From Heliocybe sulcata (Eukaryota > Basidiomycota > Agaricomycetes > Gloeophyllales > Gloeophyllaceae): a DNA stretch of 64,000 nucleotides. Numbering within the stretch: position 1 is the first letter of the stretch; each line of letters begins with the position of its first letter. Both the position numbers and the translations under genes were made by a program. Positions 1 through 13,195 of the stretch are shown here, in pieces. The notes under the pieces were generated by a model. The model had not been told where the DNA came from and searched no databases. It saw nothing but the letters and a program-made list of their open reading frames with translations. Location of the stretch: the NCBI GenBank assembly GCA_004369045.1, contig ML213507.1:1380493-1444492 (forward strand). The letters are read 5' to 3'.

Positions 1-2459
1 TTCCTTACATCGACGACGTTCCTGTCAAAGGCCCAGCGACTCGCTACGAGCAACCAGACGGGTCGTACGAAACCATGGCAGAGAACCCTGGCATCCGTCG
101 CTTCGTATGGGAGCACTTTCAGACTCTCAACCGAATCGTGCAGCGAATGCGTTACTGCGGCGGTACGTTCTCCGGTTTGAAACTGACGGTTTGCGGCCCA
201 GAAATTGTCGTCCTCGGCCATCGCTGCACCTATGAAGGGCGAGTAGCAGACGAGTCCCGGGTAGCGGTCATACGCAACTGGGGGCCTTGCAAGATGCTCT
301 CAGACGTACGCGCTTTCCTGGGCACCGCTGGCGTCCTTAGGATCTTCATCAAGAACTTCGCTCACCATGCGGACGCTCTTACCAAGCTTACGAAGAAGGA
401 CGTGCCGTTCGAATGGGGACCAGAACAAGAACTGGCCCAGGCCGACATCAAGCAGGTGCTTCTCAAGTCACCCGCGCTCCGCGCTATCGATTACACCTCA
501 CCGCTACCGGTCATATTAGCGGTGGATACGTCTTATATTGCAGTGGGGTACTACTTATGTCAACAGGCATCGGAAGCGAGCAAGCTACGGCACTACAACC
601 GCTTCGGTTCCATCATGCTCAACGACCGAGAGCGCCACTTCTCCCAGCCCAAACTGGAGATCTATGGCCTGTTCCGTAGTCTTAGAGCGCTTCACCTCTA
701 CCTTCTGGGTGTTCGTAACCTGGAAGTGGAAGTCGACGCTCGCTACATCAAAGGTATGCTCCAGAACCCCGACATCGCACCCTCAGCAAGCATCAACCGC
801 TGGATCGTCTCCATCCTTATGTTTCACTTCACGCTCGTCCACGTTCCTGGCAACAAGCACAGCCCAGACGGCCTGTCGCGTCGCCCTCAGCAACCGGACG
901 ACCCGCCTCAGGACGACGATCCCGAGTTCGATGACTGGATCGACTGACTTCATGGCTTCCTACATTTCATCAACCCAATCACTTACCTCGAGTCGCCGAC
1001 CAACCTAGCAGTCTTCGCTCAAGACCTCGTCATCAACAGCGACACTGAAGCGACCGGCAATGAAGCGCTCACCTACGCCGACTTTCCAAGGACGCCACGT
1101 TCACAGCGCATGGACGAGCGACTACGCCTTTTACCAGCATGGTTCGACTCGCTCACCAAGCCCGACGACGTCCCACAGGAGGAATACCACGGTTTCACGA
1201 AGTACGCCACGCAATTCTTCACTAGCGGCGGCAAGCTTTGGCGAAAGAACCCTCAAGGAGCGCATCAGTTGGTATTATGGGTGGATGATCGCGTCGCAGC
1301 GCTTCAGGCCTGCCATGATCAAGTAGGTCATCGAGGAATCTTTGCGACAAGGTCACTTCTTCTAGAGCGATTCTGGTGGCTGTTCTGCGTGCAAGATGCA
1401 GCGTGGTACGTCAAAAGCTGCCACCTCTGTCAAACACGCCAGAACAGACTCGTCCTCATTCCACCCACCGTTGCTACACCCGCGCCACTCTTCTCCAAGG
1501 TCCACATCGACACCATGCACCTCCCCGTCTCCGGTGGCTACCACTATATTGTGCAGGCGCGTTGTGTGTTGACCTTTTATCCAGAAGTGAAGAAGCTACG
1601 GTCCGAGAACGCCCAGATGCTCGGCGACTGGCTCTACGAAGATATACTCTGTCGCTGGGGCGGCCTCGCAGAGATCGTCACCGACAACGGCACCCCATTC
1701 ATAGCAGCAGTCGACCATCTCGCGAAGAAGTACGGCCTGCGTCACATTCGAATTAGCGGCTACAACTCTCGCGCTAACGGCGTCGTCGAGCGCCCTCACT
1801 TCGACGTCCGACAGGCGCTCTTCAAAGCGGCCGGCGGCGACGCCAAGCACTGGTCCCAGGTATTCCACTCAGTTCTGTGGTCCGAGTGTATCACCATTCG
1901 CAGACGCTTGGGCTGCTCACCCTATTTCGCCGTCACCGGAGCGCATCCACTAATTCCGCTAGATATCATCGAAGCGACCTACCTCCAACCCCCTCCCGAC
2001 TCCCTTCTATCCACGACTGACCTCATCGCTCGACGTGCCGTAGCGCTGCAGAAGCAAGACGAACAGGTAGAGCATCTGCATTCCCGTGTACTCAAACATC
2101 GTGTCGAAGCAGCGCAGCGCTTCGAGCGCGAACACGCCAACACGATACACGACTTCAACTTCAAACGCGGTGACCTCGTACTCATGCGCAATACCGCTAT
2201 CGAGAAGTCGCTCAATCGCAAGATGCGTCCCCGCTACCTTGGGCCGCTCATCGTCATCACTCGCAATCGCGGCGGCACCTACATCCTCTCCGAACTAGAC
2301 GGCACCGTCTTCGACCGCCCTATCGCTGCCTTCCGTGTCATCCCCTACCTCGCCCACAAACGTATCCCACTCCCAGACGACTTCACGGACGTCGGCAATG
2401 ACCAAGTACAGCGCATGGCCGCTCAAGACGACCCCGATACCCTCTCCGATCTCGAATGA
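1..2459 (+). mobile_element. pol region: RT end, RNase H, integrase
   Basis: Pol remnant of the LTR element. The first third resembles the RT thumb/connection and RNase H of Ty3 elements, with a LGVRNLEVEVDARYIKGM-like segment and a VPGNKHSPDGLSR-like RNase H end. The second part has an H-H-C-C integrase zinc finger (HDQVGHRG followed by CHLCQTRQ), a DDE core with HIDTMHLP and TDNGTPF, and a C-terminal KRGDLVLMRN...GPLIV module of the GPY/F type. Together these copy element RNA into DNA and integrate it. The region is not one uninterrupted frame, with about one break visible, so it reads as an inactive or decaying copy. Confidence 0.88.
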
Positions 2460-2942
2460 TTTCCACGTCTCCCGCTACGTTTCCTTTCTCTCTCTCTCTC
2501 TTTCCTCAACTAGAAGCCTCATATTCATTCGTCTCAGTTTCTTTGTTTTTGTTTTATATCATCTTAGATGCCGGACGCAACTCCGGCATACATCGTTCGT
2601 ATGTGCAGACCCTCTCGCCGCTCAAGGAACTGAGGACAGTTCACATTTGAGTCCGGGGGAGGGACCACCGTCCAACCTGTGCGCACTCACATTTTTTCAT
2701 TTTTTCTCTCTATTTCGCATTCAAAACATCGATGACGCTTTCGTTTTTCTTTCAATTCTATCTCATTTTTTGTTGCGCTCCACCAAATACACGCCACTGG
2801 TCGAGGACAAAACGTCAAGACATGCACGCAAGATCGAGCCGCACGCAAGAACGAGCGATTTTACTATTTCAAGATACGTTTTTTGTGCTGAGTACAGGCT
2901 TTTCTATTCTACAGACGACTACGCTCTACCGCTACCAACGCT
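2460..2942. other. pol 3' untranslated / intergenic segment of the element
   Basis: Pyrimidine-rich stretch (CTCTCTCTCT near 2490) after the integrase stop. It contains the first hairpin and purine-tract box at 2627-2664. No coding region is supported here. It is the 3' end-to-3' end junction between the plus-strand pol and the minus-strand gene, so both transcripts probably terminate in or across it. Confidence 0.5.
2627..2664 (+). repeat. Hairpin plus polypurine box, copy 1
   Basis: GAACTG-AGGA-CAGTTC forms a perfect 6-bp stem with a 4-nt loop (2627-2642). A spacer follows, then the purine run GGGGGAGGGA (2655-2664). The same stem, loop and purine layout recurs at 4986-5025, where it directly precedes the LTR. 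A polypurine tract primes plus-strand DNA synthesis in LTR elements. This internal copy lies about 2.4 kb from the LTR, so it is either a central tract or a relic of an older element end. Confidence 0.7.
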
Positions 2943-4940
2943 CTAGGCGCGCTGCCATACGCGGGCCTTCCCCTTTCCTTTCGCCTTCCGCCGCTCCGCC
3001 GCTCGCCGCTCTTCCCCGCGTCGCTCCTCTGCCTCCCGCTCTGCAGCGACTCGCTTCTCCTCTTCGCGTTGCTCCGCCTCTCGTCGCCGCATCGCTTGCA
3101 GAGCTGACTCCTTTCCCTTCACCCTCACCAACCCAGCGCCCTCCGCATCCGCCCCACTCTCATCTCCCGACGCGCTCGCAGAACTAGACGCCTCGCTGCT
3201 GGAGGACTTTGCTTCAGAATCAACCAAATCCACCTTCTTGGTTGCCGCCGCATCATCCACGTCGCTCTCCGCGTCAGAGTCAGACTCTGGCAGGAAGAGC
3301 GGGTCCGCACCCTTAGCACCGACGTTCGGCACTACCAGAGCGCTCGAGGGTTCCCCAGCGTCGTCCGGCTTGCCGAGAGCAGCGTCGACTCGCTCGCGGA
3401 AGGCCACGAACTCCTGGTGGTACCTCTCGACTACTGAGCGATCTATCAGGAGCGTCAGCAGCGATTTACAAAAGCAGGGCAAATTGGACGACGTACCTTG
3501 TTCGGCGGTGCGAGCGCCAGCCTCCCTGGTCTGACGCAGCTCCTCGCGCAGCGAGTCATTCGTCTGCTGGAGCCCGTCGACCCTCTCCTTCATCTCCGTC
3601 AGCAACGTCGCGAACTGTTGAATCCACGCGTGGTGGACGTTGAAGTAGTATTCGAGCGTCCCTAGCCGCTCTTCGTCGCGACCCAGGCGCTCCACCACCG
3701 CGGCAGGGAGAGGGTCGATGGGAGTCACTGGAGTTGCCGGAATGGGGCTGATAAGGCCCACCACTCTCGACGCATCCAGCAGGTTGAAGACTCGGCTACC
3801 CACTAGAGGGTGCGCTGGCGCTACCAGGCCGTCAGCGCTCCGAGACAGCAGGGAGAGACGAAACAGAACTTACGCGGCAGCTCGAGATGAGGCATCTTTG
3901 GCGTGGGAGCGTCTCCAGGCTCCGGCGCTGCACGTTTACCAGTCGATTTCTTGGTAGGGTCGGCACTCTTGTCCGTATGATGCAACGACGCCAGACTCGT
4001 AGGCGGCAGCGCTGGCGATGGGTCGCTCGGGTTGTGCGAGGGTGTGTCGGGCAGCATCTGCAGACGGCGAGCATCCGCAGCGGCCTTGGCAGCGTCCCGC
4101 TCACTGGCCTCTTTCGTCCTCGTCGAACGACGCGGCTGCTTGGCACAAGGAGTAGTAGCTGGGGCTGTACGTTGGTGAGCAATGGCGCTGAAAGAAGGAT
4201 GGGCGACTTACACGTGGGAGCGGCGACCTGACAACGACGAGGGGCCGGCCTACTAGCTCCCGTAGAGAGCGAGCACTTCTTCCGCAGGCACCAGCACTCG
4301 TAGCATGCGGTGCCCGATGGATATCCGTTCCTGGAGCAACACAACATGCTCTTGCGCTCGCAAGCATCGCACTATCTGTCGTCAGCAAGAACGAAACGTC
4401 TGGCAATAAACAATACGTACCGGCGCATCGTTCGTGGGGCCCGCTTTTTCCATCAGTCGCCTCGATGAGGCAGAACCGCCGCCAGCGACTGGCTGCTCAC
4501 GGGCCGCCTCAGCGTCAGCGACTTCCATCTCCGCCTTGGTGGCGTCTTCCTCCTCCTCCTCCTCCTCATCTCTCTCCACCTCCTGCTCCTCCTCCTCGGC
4601 GTCCTGGATGGGCTTGGTCTTGCGAATCCGAGGTTCTGCGACACGCGCCCAAGGAAGGTCCGGCAATGCCTCGCGCATTGCCAACACCAACTCATCGGCA
4701 GCGACAGCCAACATTGGTCGGCGAAGTCGTAGCGCAATGCGGAGCGCAGGACGACGTCCTCAGCTGTCGGCTAGGAATCTATTAGTAACGGCCAAACTCA
4801 GCAACGCACGAACTTACCAAGAGCTCGAGAAGGACATGCTGGGCGGCAGACTCGCTAAACTTGCCATTCAGGACGTCCAGCGCGACGCGCTCGATGGTGG
4901 CCCGGATGGACGCGGTGGTCGGTGCTGCAGAGGCGGACAT
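2943..4940 (-). CDS. Antisense spliced zinc-cluster protein gene carried by the LTR element
   Basis: Minus-strand gene of about six exons. It starts at ATG 4940-4938 (MSASAAPTTAS...), with the first donor GTAAGT near 4819, and ends at the stop at 2943. The exon at 4371-4212 begins with CDAC and carries six cysteines spaced C-X2-C-X6-C-X11-C-X2-C-X6-C. This matches fungal GAL4-type binuclear zinc clusters. Upstream lies a long Glu/Asp-rich block (4540-4600). Downstream are a Lys/Pro-rich segment, a heptad-like coiled-coil stretch (around 3520-3620) and a very basic Glu/Arg/Lys tail (2943-3120). A nuclear DNA- or chromatin-binding role is inferred from composition and zinc spacing. The gene lies wholly between the two hairpin/polypurine boxes and runs opposite to pol. 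Function unknown. Confidence 0.6.
4212..4371 (-). other. Zn2Cys6-spaced exon of the antisense gene
   Basis: Single exon bounded by a TAG acceptor before 4371 and a GTAAGT donor after 4212. The cysteine spacing C-X2-C-X6-C-X11-C-X2-C-X6-C is visible in its first 34 codons, with an extra cysteine next to the third and another between the fifth and sixth. Lys/Arg residues follow the second and fifth cysteines, as in zinc-cluster DNA-binding domains. Metal binding is inferred from spacing only. Confidence 0.6.
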
Positions 4941-4985
4941 GGTGGTGGTCGACGGTCGAAGGCAAGGAAGGGACTTAGCGACGAG

Positions 4986-5025
4986 TCGAACTGAGGACAG
5001 TTCGATTTTAAAGTCCAGGGGAGGG
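4986..5025 (+). repeat. Hairpin plus polypurine tract at LTR border, copy 2
   Basis: TCGAACTG-AGGA-CAGTTCGA is a perfect 8-bp stem with the same AGGA loop as copy 1 (4986-5005). The purine run AGGGGAGGG (5017-5025) abuts TGATAG, the start of the LTR. This is the expected plus-strand primer site. The hairpin is shared with copy 1, including the loop, so the two boxes are related by duplication. Confidence 0.75.
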
Positions 5026-6022
5026 TGATAGCCCCCAATCTGTTCTGGCCCCAGAAAACGTGTTTCGCGACGCTTCTGTGTCTTGCATGGGAACTTGGTG
5101 CTATTCTCGGCGACGGAGAACTCTGGACTCTATACGCCAACTGGGCTATTCTTGGGCGACAATGCTTCCAGTCGACGTCAGCGAGGCCGCGTCAGCGTCG
5201 GCAACCGCCGCCTATTCAGCGCCGTCACCAGCGACTCGGCCGTTGTTGTCATCACGGCTGACCCACATTCAGTCGGAACGACGGCCCGCTCCTAGGCTTC
5301 GCCGCGCCGCTCTCGACTCTGGTCTAGGTGTCGGCACGTCGCTCTCGAACGCCACGTCCCTCACTGAAGCTCCGGCCATGGTCCCACATGCTATCGTCCC
5401 TGTTATCTGATCCTATCAACTCACATCTGCTTACGCCGAGCCGGCCGGGCTCGTCAAACAATAGACGCTCGGTGCACGCTAGCAACATCTCGGATGTGGC
5501 CGACATTGCCGATGTGCCGGAGCCGCTTGCCAAGACCCGGGTTTCGGACCGGAGCCGCTCGAGAGCGTTCACTCACAATTAGACAGCTTATCGATCTGAC
5601 TCGACAACGGGCTATCGAAATCTACTATTGTCTCGTTCAGCGGGCTAGCGGCAGCGCTCGTATGGCTCGTCAAGATAGCATGTGCAGCGTCGCTGCGCTT
5701 TGGTGGCAGGAGCGGTGTAGCGGGTTGGGATTGGACGATGGGCTTGATAGAGGGTGAGCGACGGCCGGACGCAGCGTATGGTTTGGCAATTGGTGAAGTG
5801 ACTCAGACAGACGACAAGACAATAGGGCAACGCAGTAGTAGTCTGTAGCGTACTTGTATTTAAGGACGATTTTCTGTTTGTACAATCCAAGTTACATTCT
5901 CCCATTCACATCTCAGCTTAGCGTCAGAGTCTTCAGCGACTAAGGCGCTCATCGCGTCTTCCGACTTCGTCAAGAGTTTCCATCAACCTCCTTCTAAAAA
6001 CAGTCAACAACTGCTAGTGTCA
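5026..6022 (+). repeat. 3' LTR (right end approximate)
   Basis: Begins with TGATAG immediately after the polypurine tract. The TTGTATTTAAGG...TGTTTGTACAATCC segment near 5855-5890 resembles a transcription end/R-U5 region of basidiomycete gypsy LTRs. The right edge was placed at a TG...CA-compatible CTAGTGTCA near 6022. It could lie anywhere from about 5.9 to 6.2 kb, because no second LTR is in the window. Confidence 0.55.
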
Positions 6023-7845
6023 TATGCTCCAATTCCACTATCCTCTCCGAAGCAACCCCGTGTGTCGTAAAAACCGTTCACCATCGTCGTCCTCGAGTTT
6101 AGTCGCTGTCACTAGCGCTGTCGGCACCGCCGTCGCTGTCACTGTCGCTGCCGCTTCACCGCTTTAGCGACGCTAGTTCATTAGCGCCGGCCATACAAAC
6201 GCTGCGTGCTACAATTCTCGTATCAAAGGCCCCTCCCCACAGCACATCTTACATCCCCTTGTTCCCCTCGAACTAACCAATACCCTTCGATTCCACAGAC
6301 CTCGCAGCCGCGTACCACCAAGGGTTTGGTGGTATTGTGTGGTTGTTTGTTCTTTCTAGGTCTTCGTTTCGGGTTTCGTCGAGTGTCAGTGTCTCATCAA
6401 CGGCAGAAGTGGGAGCATCAGGACCGATGACTTGAAGCCTCCAGGTGAGAATTTCGGAGTCATATCATGTCCTGATGGCCTATGGCTGCAGAGCTAGAAA
6501 TCATGTGAACGCGAAGCGGAGAGAAGTACCACAAGTATCAGTGATCCAAGTCCTCGAGATAGCAAGAGTGTCGCGGCCAAAGAGTAAGATGACCTCATCC
6601 ACAGGCCTAGGTATTGACAAACAGTAGCTGAGGAGATGTCGACTGGAGAGCCTTCTATCGGTACACAACACCAGAGTACTCGAAGTATACCGGGCTGCAA
6701 TAGCTCGGGAAAACAGCTGTCACATTATGGCATTAAGTGTCCTGCAGGAAGGGGACCGACGTGAGGTCGAGCTCGACCTCAAGCTCAAGGGTCGAACATT
6801 GTGGCGTAAGTGTGGAATTATTTGGCTTTATTAGCTGTGGCTCGTCACAAGCCCAACATTAATACTTTCAATCTTTCGAGAGCCACCTCTGTGCCGCCCA
6901 TAAATTTATACAATATTCGGGTTTCCGCTTTTATGGAACTACTTGGGCTGTCGGTGCTTTATCGAGTCTGCAATGCACATCCTGATTCATCATAATCCTC
7001 TCAGCGGGACCATCTTCTCCATCTCACCATCTGGCCGTCGTAGTCAGCGTACTTGAAGCTTGACCTGACACTGATTTACTTGCACCGGATGGTCGGGATG
7101 ATACTTGTGATCTGTCTCAACTGTCATAATGCTGATAGGAATGCTGTATTCTTACTGAGCTGGCGGAACTTCTTGTTTGGTGTCGGTCTTCCACGTTTAA
7201 TGCAAACTACGCCCTCTCGTTACTCGCATGGCTGGCCACCTTTTGCTTCTCAGAGTGGAATGTCTCGAAACAGCATCTGCACTGGGTTGCTTCAACAATC
7301 ATTGCTGGTGATTCACAGAGCGCGCAGAGTGACACTGGTCTATTTTCAGTCCCATGGATCTTCTCCTTGTACGCGATCAACTTTCGAACTTGGATCATGT
7401 CTATCATTTTCTGATTGCATCAGCCATGGGCGCCCGAGCTGACACCGTGACAGCTACGCCCACCACGATCAGTATCCCACAAGGCCCTTTGCAGTGGAAC
7501 ACAGTCTCCTGTACGCAATTGGATGCGGAGGCAGCGGCTTCTGCAGGAGAATCGACGTACCCATCTCCAGGTGAAGCTGTCATACGTCTCTTGGAAGCTT
7601 CCTATGCCCTCGACTGCTTCCTTCGTTAAGACGCCTCCTCATCTTTTGAGGAGAACCGCTGAATCAGATCCTTGTGATAGTTCCTTGTCAGACCTGGATG
7701 AATCTCCTCACGATGTCAGGAGTTGACTGCTCAGATCGTGTTCATGCCGGTAAGTAACACCTATTGGACAAGGCAGGTGTATTGTCTCGAAGCACTGCGT
7801 TATGGAAAGATCATCTCAGCAGGCTGTGCATGGCACACAAAATTG
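6023..7845. other. No gene supported
   Basis: About 1.8 kb between the LTR element and the secreted-protein gene. Open frames are short, and none shows family motifs or consistent splice signals. A frame around 7354-7629 has a faintly protein-like composition but no recognisable domain. Nothing else was seen. Confidence 0.5.
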
Positions 7846-12499: not shown

Positions 12500-13195
12500 G
12501 TGTTCTCCATTTAGGGTTGCGCCACTGCTCTTGCAAGGATAGTCCTGCCAGCGACACACTTGATCTCTGTCGTTCCGCGTGCGTGGAGCGGCGCGGGCGC
12601 AAAGCCTCATGCACGCGTCGAAAACTGCGCTTGGGATAGAAAGAGCAAGTAGTCTCCACTGGAGCCGAAGTAAAACCGGAGCCGCTAAGCTTCAGATGAA
12701 AGCGGCGCAGCTGACTCATAAGAACTAGTAGCAATAGCACAAGTGACGCAGAAGACTGCGCCTGCGGATGGAGACGAAGAGCAGATGGCGTGCGCAGCCT
12801 GGTATATAATGAGAAGAGAGCAAGATGCGTCCGCAAGGAGAGGAGGTTCAATGTTCCGTCACTGGTCTCGCAAGAATGGCCCCCACCAGCGGTGCCCTTG
12901 ATCTGTGGCGTTCCGGGTGCGTACAGCGGCACGGCTGCGAAGTCTCGTGAATGTGTCGAAAACTGCGCCGGGTTGCCCTGGGATAGAAAGAGCAAGTAGT
13001 CTCCACTGGAGCCGACGTAAGACCGGAGCCGCTAAGCTTTATATGAAAGCGGCGCAGCTCACTCAGAAGAGGAAAGAGGGGCCATACGTAGGGCAAAAGA
13101 CTGCGCCTGCGGATGGAGACGAGAATGAGATGGCGTGCGCTGCCTAGTACAATGTGAGGAGCATCAAGGTGCATCTGCAAGGAGAGAAGGAAGGT
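12500..13195 (-). repeat. Tandem ~347 bp repeat, two units (arm A)
   Basis: Two units with a period of 347 nt, measured between identical AAGCTT sites at 12687 and 13034. Each unit keeps an open frame on the minus strand of about 65-75 codons containing KLSGSG, TSAPVETTCSFYP and a basic Arg/His-rich end. The two units lie in different frames because 347 is not a multiple of three. The same doubled array is present in arm B, so the tandem duplication is older than the inverted duplication. Coding status unknown. Confidence 0.75.

Follow-up and report, generated by a model that had tools for sequence, protein, structure and literature searches.

A spliced antisense gene with a six-cysteine exon, probably an accessory gene, in a Ty3-type retrotransposon lineage of Heliocybe sulcata

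LTR retrotransposons are usually described as carrying gag and pol only. A Ty3-type element lineage in the genome of Heliocybe sulcata additionally contains, between the integrase region of pol and the 3' LTR and on the opposite strand, a gene of six exons, one of which begins with a six-cysteine cluster. It is part of the element lineage and occupies this interval in 4/4 copies, from two families, whose DNA between pol and the LTR was read. In one of these families, its spliced reading frame was under frame-specific purifying selection. We read the antisense gene as a probable accessory gene of its carrier, and its predicted protein would probably be nuclear.

The element and its antisense gene

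The DNA analysed here (the window) is a stretch of 64,000 nucleotides (C5:1380493-1444492), and the searches covered the 31.6 Mb of the genome in its 51 contigs. The element that reaches into the start of the window (Table 1) is identified as a Ty3-type LTR retrotransposon by its LTRs with a target repeat, its order of RNase H followed by integrase, and its polypurine tract; upstream of the window, the reverse transcriptase stretch of this copy consists largely of N. It is flanked on both sides by ACGG, while a second copy of the same family (family A), found on contig C32 and inserted independently, lies between CTGG and CCGG. The LTR pair of the window element differs at 35/1374 sites (K2P 0.026), that of the C32 element at 18/1380 (K2P 0.013). 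The Gag open reading frame (L048 1437-2597) lacks a Pfam zinc knuckle and contains, as judged by eye, a single cysteine. Elsewhere in the window, positions 12548-13161 hold a direct repeat with a spacing of 338-347 bp, in which three matching blocks are 78-93% identical.

Table 1. Features of the Ty3-type element and its antisense gene (window positions unless a contig is named)
Feature	Position	Strand	Remarks
Ty3-type LTR element, 3' part	1-6399	+	12.7 kb in total; starts upstream of the window
5' LTR	C5:1374207-1375580		outside the window
pol, RNase H part	3-947	+	ORF and Pfam; TGA at 945-947 ends the frame in the window copy
pol, integrase part with H2C2 zinc-binding domain	948-2459	+	ORF and Pfam
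Palindrome GAACTGAGGACAGTTC, then polypurine-tract-like stretch	2627-2663	+	internal, directly after pol
Antisense exon 6	2943-3442	-	stop included
Antisense exon 5	3497-3820	-	coiled-coil-like; Pfam hits sub-threshold only
Antisense exon 4	3874-4164	-	nuclear-signal-like stretch, judged by eye
Antisense exon 3	4212-4371	-	carries the six-cysteine cluster
Antisense exon 2	4421-4770	-	one-base frame break in the window copy
Antisense exon 1	4818-4940	-	41 codons counted from the ATG
Antisense introns 1-5	4817-4771, 4420-4372, 4211-4165, 3873-3821, 3496-3443	-	
Palindrome GAACTGAGGACAGTTC	4988-5003	.	between antisense ATG and 3' LTR
Polypurine tract	5004-5025	+	minus-strand reading of its T-rich part: TTTAAAAT, TATA-like
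TATA-like box	5012-5005	-	by eye
3' LTR, TG..CA	5026-6399	+	target repeat ACGG at 6400-6403

An ATG at 4940 opens the antisense gene, and a stop at 2943 closes it. Its five introns all have GT..AG borders (5/5), are 47-54 bp long and interrupt the frame in phases 0, 0, 1, 1 and 1. An earlier sequence-only reading of this stretch had proposed a six-exon minus-strand gene with good splice sites between integrase and the 3' LTR, and its coordinates, strand and exon count prove correct.

Exon 2 of the window copy contains a one-base frame break relative to the C32 copy; because of this break and the TGA that interrupts pol, the window element has to be regarded as a decayed copy. The copy on C32 has an intact exon 2 frame, an LTR-like insertion in intron 2, and an intron 5 that has lost its GT donor; this intron is 54 bp long and stop-free, so that it is readable through. 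With the insertion and the donor loss in the C32 copy and the exon 2 break in the window copy, both members of family A are decayed. The insertion in intron 2 is about 1.43 kb long (C32:68625-70058; TAATACG..CATCA), reads partly as N in its middle and has ACGG on either side; over 130 positions, its 3' end matches the end of the family-A LTR at 81.5% identity.

Conservation and reading-frame constraint

The genome contains 38 listed places with an integrase H2C2 domain, and a second element family (family B), with copies on C10 and C27, was found via its integrase, which is 58-83% identical by piece. Both of its copies carry the antisense gene, which is open throughout and encodes 526 amino acids, as compared with about 580-600 in family A. 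All five introns match between the two families in position and in phase (0, 0, 1, 1, 1), and exon 1 is 41 codons long in both. The antisense proteins of the two families are 27% identical; the six cysteines are invariant, and a stretch resembling a bipartite nuclear signal when judged by eye (KRAAP...PK..R.E) is common to both. The sequence-only reading would have been undermined had the protein lacked conservation in related elements, an objection that fails since the gene is found in two family-A copies and in a second family; within this one genome, protein and integrase-LTR position are conserved together in every copy read. It had also argued that minus-strand introns survive retrotransposition, and this agrees with the intron positions kept in 4/4 copies, one of which has lost its intron-5 donor. 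The LTR queries matched at least 49 places in the whole genome for family A and at least 50 for family B; many of these are probably solo LTRs or fragments, since only two gene-bearing copies were found per family.

The spliced frames of C10 and C27 differ by 87 changes, 44 or 46 of which are nonsynonymous where 59.4 or 62.8 are expected; counts as low occurred in 1/2000 and 0/2000 simulations in which mutation type and CpG status were kept. The NG86 omega is 0.33, and control comparisons of the same copies in shifted frames and on the reverse strand gave P values of 0.81, 0.94 and 0.95. The family B reading frame was under frame-specific purifying selection. In family A, antisense exons 3-6 show no significant constraint (20 nonsynonymous among 33 changes; P 0.32 and 0.23), but the integrase does (25 among 50; P 0.002). 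A search for the longest spliced open reading frame in C10 and C27 recovered 544 amino acids on the strand of the antisense gene versus 190 on the opposite strand; it should be noted that the 544-residue solution uses four introns rather than five, one stop-free intron being read through. One thousand shuffles of C10 yielded a mean of 124 and a maximum of 347 amino acids, and the broken window copy itself only 353.

A third homologue (C6:1128970-1130256, read in part; family C) is 37 and 43% identical to the family B proteins; its zinc exon also begins at the first cysteine codon, and the phase of intron 3 is the same. None of the listed integrase, reverse transcriptase, gag or family A or B LTR places lies near it in the surrounding sequence, which is partly N. 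The 30 bases beside a palindrome at this locus, however, read as a polypurine tract and then CGATAGG, which resembles the LTR start TGATAGG, and for this reason we treat the C6 homologue as an element remnant and have set it aside as a host-gene source. Weak matches led to four further loci with related zinc exons (family D): C1:2266082, which served as the query, C5:719841 (97%), C9:1114637 (72%) and C48:34394 (73%). At the C1 locus, where the exon border was read, the zinc exon starts right after the AG at the first cysteine codon. None of the listed integrase, reverse transcriptase, gag or family A or B LTR places is near these loci, yet the family D gene is dispersed, given the 97% identity between its copies on C1 and C5. 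The sequence-only reading had suggested that the element may carry its own regulator or that a host gene was captured. That the gene belongs to the element is borne out in every copy read, and its product is a candidate regulator; no clear host gene was found, since even at C6 the homologue lies next to a polypurine tract and an LTR-like start.

The six-cysteine exon and the paired palindromes

The spacing of GAL4-type Zn2Cys6 clusters ranges over CX2CX6CX5-12CX2CX6-8C. Exon 3 of the antisense gene starts exactly at its first cysteine codon and reads C-X2-C-X6-C-X11-C-X2-C-X6-C, and the zinc exons of all four families (A, B, C and D) fall within that range. When the window was scanned in six frames with C-X2-C-X6-C-X5-14-C-X2-C-X6-C, this was the only site, and 60 first-order Markov shuffles contained none. 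The Pfam profile of the cluster (PF00172, Zn_clus; curated cut-off 21 bits) nevertheless gave no match in natural order to family A exons 3-6 or the whole family B protein (E up to 10), nor to family C, and for those A exons and the B protein no other Pfam family cleared its threshold either. The GAL4-type exon announced by the sequence-only reading is therefore upheld in its spacing, on which the label rests for families A and B, and not in its profile. The family D exon alone passes the profile cut-off, with 21.5 bits in two stretches.

Exchanging the two halves of the cluster raised the scores against PF00172 to 30.4 bits for family D, 16.2 for C, 14.7 for B and 11.5 for A. Shuffles with the cysteines held fixed matched in 4/10 cases at 12.4-17.0 bits, a range that spans or exceeds the scores of A, B and C and leaves family D as the one exception. 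In linker controls, D scored 18.3 and 21.6 bits and C 14.7 and 10.1 bits, and A and B had no match; when the half peptides were run in isolation, the first half of D matched (16.5 bits, to the second half of the profile) and the other seven did not. GAL4 itself scored 48.4 bits in natural order and 35.4 bits when rotated. A swapped-halves module common to all families was downgraded on the strength of the shuffles, and a Zn2Cys6 cluster with exchanged halves is at present a hint from sequence profiles, not a result. The words 'circularly permuted' together with zinc cluster did not occur in the literature among the matches listed. An AlphaFold model of exon 3 failed (mean pLDDT 45.5), a sequence-profile search of the PDB found no meaningful relative (one meaningless match), and the 49 pattern stretches in viral contigs included no relative.

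The palindrome GAACTGNNNNCAGTTC occurs at nine sites in the 31.6 Mb searched, and all nine belong to antisense genes; the reversed control pattern has five sites. Eight of the nine form pairs in the four elements, with one palindrome just after pol and the other in the gap that separates the antisense ATG from the 3' LTR, and the ninth (C6:1128728-1128743) lies beside the third homologue. Wherever the DNA was read onward (both palindromes of the window and C10 elements, the 3' side of those on C32 and C27), a polypurine-tract-like stretch follows. Palindrome and tract are duplicated in the window (2627-2663 and 4988-5025), an arrangement that could be a scar left when the gene was acquired or a site of central priming. 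Read on the minus strand, the LTR-adjacent tract contains TTTAAAAT in family A, TTAAAAT in family B and TTAAATT at the C6 locus, and the internal tract copies read CAAATG in A and TGAAAATG in B. Because of the TATA-like boxes at the LTR side, we place a putative antisense promoter at the edge of the polypurine tract and the 3' LTR; the LTR-side palindrome is located between the TATA-like box, which is the T-rich box of the tract in reverse, and the antisense start codon. Folded as RNA, the palindrome forms a predicted hairpin (z -2.2; 5/200 shuffles as stable), and it could act in this form rather than as a protein site.

A probable accessory gene and its known counterparts

The reading that we favour, and hold to be fairly probable, is that of an accessory gene of the Ty3-type lineage, transcribed antisense from the tract/3' LTR edge, spliced, and encoding a zinc-cluster-like protein that regulates the element. 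RNA polymerase II would start at a promoter for which the T-rich box of the tract serves as a minus-strand TATA-like element, and the antisense transcript would then be spliced; the introns would persist through rounds of mobility because the genomic RNA is the sense strand, in which they are not introns. The predicted protein combines an acidic stretch, the six-cysteine cluster, the nuclear-signal-like stretch and a coiled-coil-like part; it may enter the nucleus, dimerise, bind, and regulate either transcription of the element or reverse transcription. A more specific version, in which a coiled-coil dimer with swapped-halves Zn2Cys6 modules binds the flanking GAACTGNNNNCAGTTC palindromes as a self-made feedback regulator, controlling the antisense promoter and perhaps plus-strand priming, is a tentative extension that we rate as rather unlikely in this full form.

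The gene might instead be a passenger, a spliced gene taken over once from its host or from a different mobile element and perhaps expressed, but useless to its carrier. The divergence of the A and B proteins far beyond that of the integrase, the broken state of both family-A copies, and the four family D loci, at which related zinc exons have no pol found near them, would all suit such a history; the purifying selection in family B, the conservation of introns and position across two families, and the retention of palindrome pairs in all four elements do not, and we consider the proposal unlikely. A function of the antisense RNA rather than of the protein, through double-stranded RNA or interference with the gag-pol sense transcript and with the reading frame as a secondary matter, has been discussed for plant elements in the available text of PMC7264820, and the putative promoter would indeed face pol; a function at the RNA level, however, would not require that all six exons stay open or that constraint act on codons, which makes this an improbable account.

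The zinc protein might also be a nucleic-acid chaperone or packaging factor that replaces the Gag zinc knuckle, with the palindrome as an RNA hairpin near the polypurine tract. The composition of the Gag frame and the hairpin fold are in keeping with this idea, but a separately transcribed antisense gene would be an odd route to a structural protein and the nuclear-signal-like stretch, as judged by eye, points to the nucleus; we regard it as very improbable. That the gene model was assembled by chance from unrelated open stretches might be surmised from the lack of a known Pfam domain above cut-off in A exons 3-6 or B and from the failure of the model in the window copy itself. Conserved introns, invariant cysteines, frame-specific constraint and the spliced-ORF shuffles speak against it, family B contradicts it, and we reject it as barely credible.

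Likeness to the fungal Zn2Cys6 (GAL4-type) regulators of PF00172 consists in six cysteines at compatible spacing, with a coiled-coil-like part downstream. The H. sulcata proteins differ from these in that families A, B and C miss the profile in natural order, in that basic residues lie in the second half of the cluster, and in that swapping the halves improves the score of the family D exon (from 21.5 to 30.4 bits).

A search of the literature, judged by titles and abstract openings and with subscription papers mostly outside it, found no spliced antisense zinc-cluster gene in a fungal LTR element. Zhao reportedly described in 2011 brtn as an antisense gene of Boty-like LTR elements of Botrytis cinerea. 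It is located between pol and the 3' LTR, according to the available part of PMC7264820, and as an antisense gene of a fungal LTR element in the same interval it resembles the H. sulcata gene, a comparison made by description only. Antisense open reading frames between pol and the 3' LTR are also documented in plant Ty3 elements, namely gene23 of Grande, RIRE2, and TRP28 of Retand, in the accessible sections of PMC7264820 and PMC11963269; the Grande frame has its own promoter and a nuclear protein product (PMC7264820). These plant frames agree with the H. sulcata gene in position and strand and are present in most plant copies, but in these sections they are described as open reading frames and not as five-intron genes like that of the Heliocybe element, and PMC11963269 makes no mention of introns; their domains are TRP28 or SMC rather than a six-cysteine cluster, and their hosts are plants, not a fungus (PMC7264820, PMC11963269). 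As far as these sources go, the plant frames and brtn are the closest structural relatives. What is already known is an antisense gene in the interval from pol to the 3' LTR; what is new here is its zinc exon, its set of five introns kept in place, and the palindromes that occur in pairs. The review in PMC7264820 calls, in its available text, for attention to 'antisense and spliced transcripts'. That an antisense gene with several introns has been retained across deep divergence shows that an element can hold a spliceosomal gene on the strand left unread by its RNA stage.

Functionally, the closest analogue is HBZ of HTLV-1, a bZIP protein. According to the accessible portion of PMC1459196, antisense transcription of HBZ is initiated in the 3' LTR, and the transcripts are spliced and encode a regulator. 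We claim resemblance here, not membership: HBZ carries a bZIP domain rather than a zinc cluster and belongs to a vertebrate retrovirus rather than a fungal element, and on the fungal side the comparison draws on gene structure. The paired palindromes, which within the searched genome are confined to the genes described here, are a candidate target of the protein, so that the role of antisense accessory genes becomes testable by one binding assay, and the H. sulcata elements offer a concrete system for asking whether such genes regulate their carriers as HBZ does in HTLV-1.
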